Source: Actinomycetota bacterium (lineage in GTDB: Bacteria > Actinomycetota > Thermoleophilia > Gaiellales > Gaiellaceae). Taken from it: 64,000 nucleotides of DNA. Below the pieces are notes generated by a model that saw only the letters and a program-made list of their open reading frames with translations, had not been told where the DNA came from and made no database searches. Where the stretch lies: positions 100,108-164,107 of the forward strand of contig PMOB01000026.1 in the NCBI GenBank assembly GCA_003161615.1, written 5' to 3'. Of the stretch, positions 36,888 through 37,904 are shown piece by piece. The position numbers and the translations under genes were made by a program. Numbering within the stretch: position 1 is the stretch's first letter; each line of letters starts with the position of its first letter.

Positions 36888-37904
36888 ATGGATTTCGGCG
36901 TCACGGTCCTTCCGGATCCGCCGTTCTCGCGCTGGCTCGAGCTGATCCAGCTCGCCGAGAAGCACGGCTTCGGCTACGCGTGGACGTACGACTCGCACGT
37001 CCTCTGGCAGGAGTCGATCCCGATGCTCGCAGTCGCAGCGCGCGAGACGTCGTCGATCAAGCTCGGCCACTTCGTCACGAACCCGGCGACGCGCGACCCG
37101 ACCGTGCTCGCGAGCTCGTACGCGACGCTGCACGACCTTTCCGACGGCCGGATGGTGATGGGCGTCGGCCGCGGCGACTCGGCCGTCCGCTACATCGGGC
37201 GGCAGCCGATGAAGGTGGCGGAGTTCGAGGCGGCGCTCGCGATGATCCGCGAGTTCATGAACGGCCGCGAGGTCAACTGGAACGACAAAGACCTCCAGCT
37301 GAAGTGGGTCCGCGAGGAGCTGCCGCCGATCCCGGTCTGGGTCGCCGGCTACGGCCCGAAGGCACTCGCGGTCGCGGGCCGCGTCGGGGACGGCGTGATC
37401 ATCCAGCTCGCCGACCCGGAGATCATCACGTGGATCATGGATACCGCCCGCCGCGCGGCGGAGGAGGCGGGCCGCGACCCGTCCCAGCTGAAGTGCATCG
37501 TCGGCGCGCCCGCGCACATCTCCGACGACCTGGCGGACGCGCGCGAGCAGGTGCGCTGGTTCCCGGCCATGGTCTCGAACCACGTCATGGACCTGATCGA
37601 GCGCTACGGCACCGACGGCTCCTCCGTTCCGAAGGCGCTGACCGACTACGTCCAGGCGCGGAAGTTCTACGACTACAACGATCACTCGCGCGTCGGCGCG
37701 GCGCACGGCGAGTTCGTGACCGACGAGATCTGCGACCGCTTCTGCGTGCTCGGGAACGTCGAGCAGGCGAAGGCGAAGCTGCGCGAGCTGGAGGACGTCG
37801 GCGTCGACCAGTTCAACATCTACCTCATGACGCACGGCCAGGAAGAGACGCTGCAGGCCTTCGGCGACGACATCATCCCCGAGCTCTCCAGCGTCCCTGC
37901 CTAA
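36888..37904 (+). CDS. LLM-class F420-dependent oxidoreductase (CPS_4043/TIGR03842-like)
   Basis: A 338-residue luciferase-like TIM-barrel protein starting at ATG 36888 (MDFGVTVLPDPPFSRWLELIQLAE). It has the LLM pattern YAWTYDSHVLWQE, GHFVTNPATRDPTVLAS, GVGRGDSAVRYIG and VWVAGYGPKALAVAGRVGDGVIIQLADP. These fit the subgroup I recall as TIGR03842, related to methylene-H4MPT reductase and F420-linked. It lies in the same run as beta-ureidopropionase, a Ddn-like F420 protein and an MFS carrier. No Fe-S dihydropyrimidine dehydrogenase is in the window, so F420H2-dependent reduction of uracil/thymine is a testable assignment. The C-terminal TFNIYLMTHGQE-type segment is intact. Confidence 0.88.
   Translation: MDFGVTVLPDPPFSRWLELIQLAEKHGFGYAWTYDSHVLWQESIPMLAVAARETSSIKLGHFVTNPATRDPTVLASSYATLHDLSDGRMVMGVGRGDSAVRYIGRQPMKVAEFEAALAMIREFMNGREVNWNDKDLQLKWVREELPPIPVWVAGYGPKALAVAGRVGDGVIIQLADPEIITWIMDTARRAAEEAGRDPSQLKCIVGAPAHISDDLADAREQVRWFPAMVSNHVMDLIERYGTDGSSVPKALTDYVQARKFYDYNDHSRVGAAHGEFVTDEICDRFCVLGNVEQAKAKLRELEDVGVDQFNIYLMTHGQEETLQAFGDDIIPELSSVPA

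Follow-up and report, generated by a model that had tools for sequence, protein, structure and literature searches.

A candidate F420H2-dependent pyrimidine reductase of the LLM class in the place of PreTA in bacterial gene clusters

The LLM-class oxidoreductase encoded in a stretch of 64,000 nucleotides from a Gaiellaceae bacterium (Thermoleophilia, Actinomycetota; hereafter, the window) is very probably the first enzyme of reductive pyrimidine catabolism, an F420H2-dependent uracil/thymine reductase that would replace PreTA. This reading is based on which genes are present, on their conserved co-localisation, on the exchange of the LLM with PreTA and its association with F420 genes, and on a Mer-like fold; from these we infer the substrate, the use of the cofactor, the chemistry of hydride transfer, and the residues that act in catalysis. 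The original prediction named this protein as a candidate for the missing first step of the pathway. The comparison of genomes supports it, since PreA was not detected in the genome of the window, the LLM gene is co-localised with the genes of the later steps, and at least three exchanges with PreTA can be traced. The reductive pathway itself is already known; the enzyme of its first step and the cofactor would be new.

Table 1. Genes of the window and PreA-like genes of Chloroflexota loci, with the evidence for their assignment
Feature	Position	Strand	Evidence
Class III aminotransferase, proposed beta-alanine/beta-aminoisobutyrate aminotransferase	23169..24524	-	NF004718, 619.7 bits (cut-off 472)
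CoA-acylating methylmalonate-semialdehyde dehydrogenase (MMSDH), start codon approximate	24543..26054	+	TIGR01722, 665.1 bits (cut-off 448.5)
Dihydropyrimidinase	29032..30444	-	TIGR02033, 601.6 bits (cut-off 393)
ABC importer substrate-binding protein, NMT1/THI5 type, start approximate	30472..31581	-	PF09084, 113.5 bits
ABC importer permease	31642..32427	-	Adjoins the binding protein in relatives too; 39% identity to a PreTA-cluster permease
ABC importer ATPase	32424..33233	-	55–59% identity to ATPases of PreTA clusters
ABC importer permease, start approximate	33230..34072	-	38% identity to a PreTA-cluster permease
M20-type carbamoylase, proposed beta-ureidopropionase	34120..35352	+	TIGR01879, 281.6 bits (cut-off 204)
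Ddn-like deazaflavin-dependent protein (F420H2_quin_red)	35349..35768	+	PF04075, 154.3 bits; TIGR00026
MFS transporter, start uncertain, directly before the LLM gene	35828..36877	+	PF07690
LLM-class oxidoreductase, TIGR03842 (CPS_4043) family, proposed F420H2-dependent uracil/thymine reductase	36888..37904	+	TIGR03842 score, AlphaFold2 model, Mer fold match
Fe–S-free PreA-like protein	L156 7246-8388; L158 9618-10745; L160 9383-10549; L161 9453-10592; L162 7517-8644; L163 4630-5763

The LLM gene is an open frame encoding 338 aa, with a strong coding signature (third-position GC 0.96). The protein matches TIGR03842 (F420_CPS_4043) over residues 2–333 at 440.7 bits, above the curated cut-off of 295.45 bits, which confirms its earlier assignment to the CPS_4043 type. 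Its sole domain is Bac_luciferase (PF00296); neither the DHO_dh nor the C-terminal ferredoxin domain of PreA (NF006183) was found in it, and the RutA model (TIGR03612) gave no match to it at E 0.001. Identity with Mer (TIGR03555) was rejected, the score being 153.4 bits against a cut-off of 348.7. The AlphaFold2 model (pLDDT 94.8) is matched best by F420-dependent Mer (Z 36) and then by other F420 enzymes (Z 28–33); FMN monooxygenases, with RutA at Z 25, rank below them.

Mer is the nearest solved relative of the LLM protein, with an identity of 27–28%, and the VTN..TR.P and G.GD motifs are common to both. Glu6 of Mer corresponds to Thr, Val, or Cys at the aligned position 6 of the LLM family. 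The residues D35, S36, W40, N65, R69, R95, S98, Y155, Q173, W224, N231, Y261, Y263, and H266 are invariant across 107 LLM homologues. The aligned Mer lacks R95, Y155, Q173, and the 261–266 stretch, which can be regarded as candidates for a new substrate pocket.

In the window, a dihydropyrimidinase and a carbamoylase, both scoring over their model cut-offs, are encoded beside the LLM. The companions attributed to it earlier are mostly confirmed: the dihydropyrimidinase, aminotransferase, MMSDH, importer, and Ddn-like protein are all present, while the beta-ureidopropionase is a putative assignment of the M20 protein, for which the models give the hydantoinase/carbamoylase family. The solved relatives of this protein include both N-carbamoyl-beta-alanine amidohydrolase and the beta-alanine synthase of yeast; amino-acid carbamoylases score higher. 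The nearest solved chains of the dihydropyrimidinase are D-hydantoinases and dihydropyrimidinases. The NMT1/THI5-type ABC importer spans positions 30472-34072 of the minus strand, and its substrate-binding protein shows 34–42% identity with those encoded in PreTA clusters. Members of the class III aminotransferase family of the window occur in many LLM loci, and the MFS transporter gene is present in 15 loci, one of which is the window. The Ddn-like gene accompanies the LLM in only six loci, the window and its close relatives; the Ddn-like protein is therefore probably dispensable for the pathway, and the role in it that was suggested earlier is unsupported.

The genome from which the window originates is 2.3 Mb in size and 95% complete. 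The PreA model found nothing over its cut-off there, the best matches being the PyrK-PyrD locus and a Dus protein, in agreement with the predicted lack of PydA/PreTA; RutA (TIGR03612) had no match in this genome at E 0.001. As for the F420 biosynthesis genes, whose presence was also to be expected, cofD (287 bits) and cofE (271 bits) exceed their cut-offs and are located in one gene run with an npdG-like gene for NADPH:F420 reductase (111 bits, below the cut-off of 149.8). CofH/FbiC was not found in this 95%-complete genome; this may be explained either by an assembly gap or by FO being obtained otherwise.

The co-occurrence of the genes was analysed in an even set of 296 Actinomycetota genomes. 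The TIGR03842 LLM was detected in 60 of them and dihydropyrimidinase in 84, with 56 genomes containing both. Dihydropyrimidinase is thus encoded by 56 of the 60 genomes with the LLM and by 28 of the 236 without it (odds ratio 104, Fisher p 3e-34). The two genes share a contig and are no more than 10 kb apart in 46 of the 56 genomes, and no more than 1 kb apart in 19, so the expected association of the LLM with dihydropyrimidinase in PreA-free genomes was indeed observed, both as co-occurrence and as co-localisation. CofD is present in 56/60 LLM genomes against 104/236 other genomes (p 3e-13); the four LLM genomes without it all belong to one family (f18), most other LLM-bearing members of which have CofD. 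These p-values overstate independence, because the sampled genomes are related, and the spread over phyla together with the rearranged gene orders is better evidence. PreA was found in two of the 296 genomes and in none of the 60 with the LLM; given this rarity, the mutual exclusion of the LLM and PreA has little power in Actinomycetota. Among the genomes behind 50 of the LLM loci, none contained PreA over the cut-off.

Eighty loci from Thermoleophilia, Rubrobacter, and Chloroflexota and 16 more regions (15 around the LLM and one around PreA) were annotated by clustering. The LLM is the constant part of the clusters across Thermoleophilia, Rubrobacter, Streptomyces, Chloroflexota, and Rhodobacterales, and the only ring-reductase candidate common to all of them; the carbamoylase (M20 or nitrilase) and the importer (ABC or NCS1) are swapped from one cluster to another. 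Thermoleophilia clusters combine the LLM with dihydropyrimidinase, M20, and an ABC importer. In Rubrobacter, the order dihydropyrimidinase-AT-M20-NCS1-LLM can be noted (AT, aminotransferase), and in Chloroflexota and Streptomyces a nitrilase-type carbamoylase takes the place of M20. Loci L136, L140, and L146 are whole operons in which the genes for the LLM and dihydropyrimidinase are joined by those for the importer, carbamoylase, and aminotransferase, some of these operons also encoding MMSDH; the gene order is AT-nitrilase-dihydropyrimidinase-MMSDH-LLM-ABC importer in L136 and AT-NCS1-LLM-nitrilase-dihydropyrimidinase-ALDH in L146. Animal beta-ureidopropionase is among the solved relatives of the cluster nitrilase but scores below N-carbamoylputrescine amidase, and the L136 nitrilase has 61% identity with that of a Cytobacillus PreTA cluster. 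The only solved relative of the NCS1 permease is the hydantoin transporter Mhp1. No PreA or PreT homologues were found within loci L010–L089.

PreTA or PydA (NF006183 and its partner) occupies the same place in the pathway and in the clusters as that proposed for the LLM. Like the LLM clusters, PreTA clusters contain dihydropyrimidinase, an M20 or nitrilase carbamoylase, an NCS1 or ABC importer, and a RutR-like regulator. However, the proteins are not related: the LLM is one small barrel with neither a DHO_dh nor an Fe–S domain, and its expected donor is F420H2, whereas PreTA uses NAD(P)H through FAD, Fe–S, and FMN. A genome of the same order as the window (G254) contains an overlapping gene run PreT-PreA-M20-dihydropyrimidinase and no LLM. 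In a tree of 47 dihydropyrimidinases, the protein of this genome is sister (100/100) to an LLM-linked counterpart from Thermoleophilaceae (L046), and the LLM-linked protein of Leisingera is located among alphaproteobacterial PreTA-linked ones (100/98). Well-supported branches of the tree force at least three LLM/PreTA partner changes; therefore, related hydrolases appear to act downstream of either enzyme.

Proteobacteria were sampled through plasmid records. On plasmids of Leisingera caerulea and Paracoccus alcaliphilus, the genes cofG-cofH-cofD-cofC-cofE-npdG are directly followed by the LLM gene. In Leisingera, the next gene encodes a regulator resembling RutR, with a TIGR03613 score of 194 bits that does not reach the cut-off, and the neighbouring run is pntAB-AT-M20-dihydropyrimidinase-NCS1. 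When the Leisingera proteins are compared with those encoded in PreTA clusters of Rhizobiales/Rhodobacterales, the identity reaches 76% for the dihydropyrimidinase, 74% for the M20 protein, and 52% for the regulator. In effect, the PreT-PreA pair would be replaced here with genes to make F420, reduce it with NADPH, and use it. The 12 plasmid records with a close LLM do not overlap with the 60 PreA-bearing records listed, out of 61.

A divergent LLM, 32% identical to that of the window and below the TIGR03842 cut-off, is encoded by plasmid 3 of Variovorax sp. PBL-E5 (NZ_LR594673.1; L099 6922-19497). Its neighbours are cofGHDCE, npdG, and genes encoding RidA, a CobW-type GTPase, a nitrilase-type carbamoylase, a cyclic amidohydrolase that reaches none of the curated cut-offs, and a D-amino-acid dehydrogenase-like protein. 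Possibly, this is a sister F420 pathway for another N-heterocycle.

Such a substrate can also be considered for the LLM of the window, which would then reduce or oxidise another cyclic ureide or N-heterocycle, for example of the hydantoin type, the product being opened by the amidohydrolase and carbamoylase. The TIGR02033 and TIGR01879 models do include hydantoinases and other carbamoylases, the NCS1 permease is related to a hydantoin transporter, and the distant Variovorax LLM is accompanied by a different cyclic amidohydrolase and the D-amino-acid dehydrogenase-like gene. Nevertheless, this explanation is unlikely: hydantoin utilisation requires no redox step, the MMSDH and aminotransferase genes of the same operons suit beta-alanine and beta-aminoisobutyrate rather than alpha-amino acids, PreTA stands in the place of the LLM beside relatives of the same hydrolases, and the regulator adjoining the LLM in Leisingera resembles a pyrimidine regulator.

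It can also be suggested that the LLM is accessory, serving F420 recycling, detoxification, or another substrate, and that an unrecognised reductase, such as the Ddn-like protein or an Fe–S-free PreA-like protein, produces the dihydropyrimidine. The proximity of the Ddn-like gene in the window agrees with this, as do the presence of a PreA-like protein in one LLM cluster (L156) and the reduction of the uracil ring of mureidomycin by an F420/FMN-type Streptomyces protein (PMC10714638). However, the Ddn-like neighbour was rejected as the ring reductase, being too sporadic with its six loci. Chloroflexota, where the LLM occurs in 34 of 201 genomes and PreA over the cut-off in four, contain further cases that do not fit the proposed replacement of PreTA by the LLM. 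One of the four PreA-bearing genomes (G396) also has the LLM, with PreT-PreA on another contig as a single fused protein of 868 aa (L157 9888-12494), so that an absolute mutual exclusion of the LLM and PreA was rejected. Six LLM-bearing genomes encode a PreA-like protein of about 380 aa without the C-terminal ferredoxin domain, which scores about 290 bits with NF006183, with PF01180 only in L156. The gene adjoins an aminotransferase gene in L156 and L161, and in L156, the one such case, it lies beside the aminotransferase and NCS1 genes of the LLM cluster itself. Given these six carriers and the genome with both enzymes, some lineages may have two reductases, perhaps with different substrates. 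As the PreA-like protein occurs in only a few Chloroflexota and the LLM is the one ring-reductase candidate that all clusters share, an accessory role of the LLM is quite improbable.

Least probable is an FMN-dependent oxygenase opening the ring oxidatively in the manner of RutA, which shares the superfamily and fold with the LLM and acts on uracil but belongs to another family, depends on FMN and oxygen, and requires no dihydropyrimidinase: the F420 enzymes fit the LLM model better, dihydropyrimidinase accompanies the LLM in 56 of the 60 genomes, and the Rhodobacterales LLM copies terminate an F420 biosynthesis operon.

For the LLM as a pyrimidine reductase, the presence of cofD in most carriers, the cof-npdG-LLM operons, and the Mer-like fold point indirectly to the use of F420, and the exchange with PreTA in the clusters points to the conversion of uracil and thymine into their 5,6-dihydro forms. 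F420 would be reduced by NADPH through NpdG/Fno, which would regenerate F420H2. Inside the LLM barrel, the C5 hydride of F420H2 would be transferred to C6 of uracil or thymine, and an acidic group of the protein would protonate C5, yielding the 5,6-dihydropyrimidine. Its ring would be opened by dihydropyrimidinase, and the carbamoylase would produce beta-alanine or beta-aminoisobutyrate, ammonia and CO2 being set free in the dihydropyrimidinase and carbamoylase steps; the aminotransferase and MMSDH would then direct the carbon to acetyl-CoA or propionyl-CoA. The dihydropyrimidine dehydrogenases known so far use NAD(P)H as the driving donor. Since F420H2 donates at least as strongly, the reduction of pyrimidines with F420H2 would be feasible.

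Thus, in at least three phyla, the LLM occupies the place of the usual Fe–S enzyme in the gene clusters and probably does its job with F420. If so, the committing step of uracil and thymine breakdown can proceed without Fe–S clusters, with an enzyme unrelated to the known one; an orphan F420 family acquires a function, and one reason for F420 production in many soil and marine bacteria is provided. The mammalian enzyme of this step also degrades 5-fluorouracil, and an enzyme performing the same step with another cofactor is therefore of practical interest.

The reduction of the C5–C6 bond of a uracil ring has been described for SSGG-03002, a putative F420/FMN-dependent protein of the mureidomycin cluster of Streptomyces, on the basis of in vivo genetic and NMR evidence; no in vitro activity was obtained (PMC10714638). 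This protein and NpsU of the napsamycin cluster resemble the LLM in its proposed function and differ in belonging to secondary metabolism, where the uracil is part of a peptide antibiotic (PMC10714638). In the open-licence literature, nothing relevant joining F420 to dihydropyrimidinase, ureidopropionase, or pyrimidine catabolism was found; work in subscription journals may exist. According to a 2021 review, studies of F420H2-dependent reductases in bacteria had been confined to Actinobacteria, and the question of why Proteobacteria and Chloroflexi make F420 was unanswered (PMC8498797). The finding makes this question directly testable. Tentatively, pyrimidine catabolism might be a main reason for F420 in many Chloroflexota, Thermoleophilia, and Rubrobacteria and in some Rhodobacterales, with the F420 genes moving on plasmids together with the LLM; with the Variovorax paralogue included, LLM/Mer-like enzymes might represent a general F420H2-dependent route in which N-heterocycles are reduced and then hydrolysed.

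Several other features of the window can be noted. A small DUF1932-domain protein is encoded at 26051-26587 on the strand opposite to the MMSDH gene, the end of which it overlaps. A polyamine-type cluster at 42348-47714 encodes an aminobutyraldehyde dehydrogenase (NF010000, over the cut-off) and an ABC importer with a YdcS-like binding protein. Two adjacent paralogues at 5965-8306 have the common opening motif MTL-N/D-LGGHTITGNSG and are perhaps right-handed beta-helix surface proteins.
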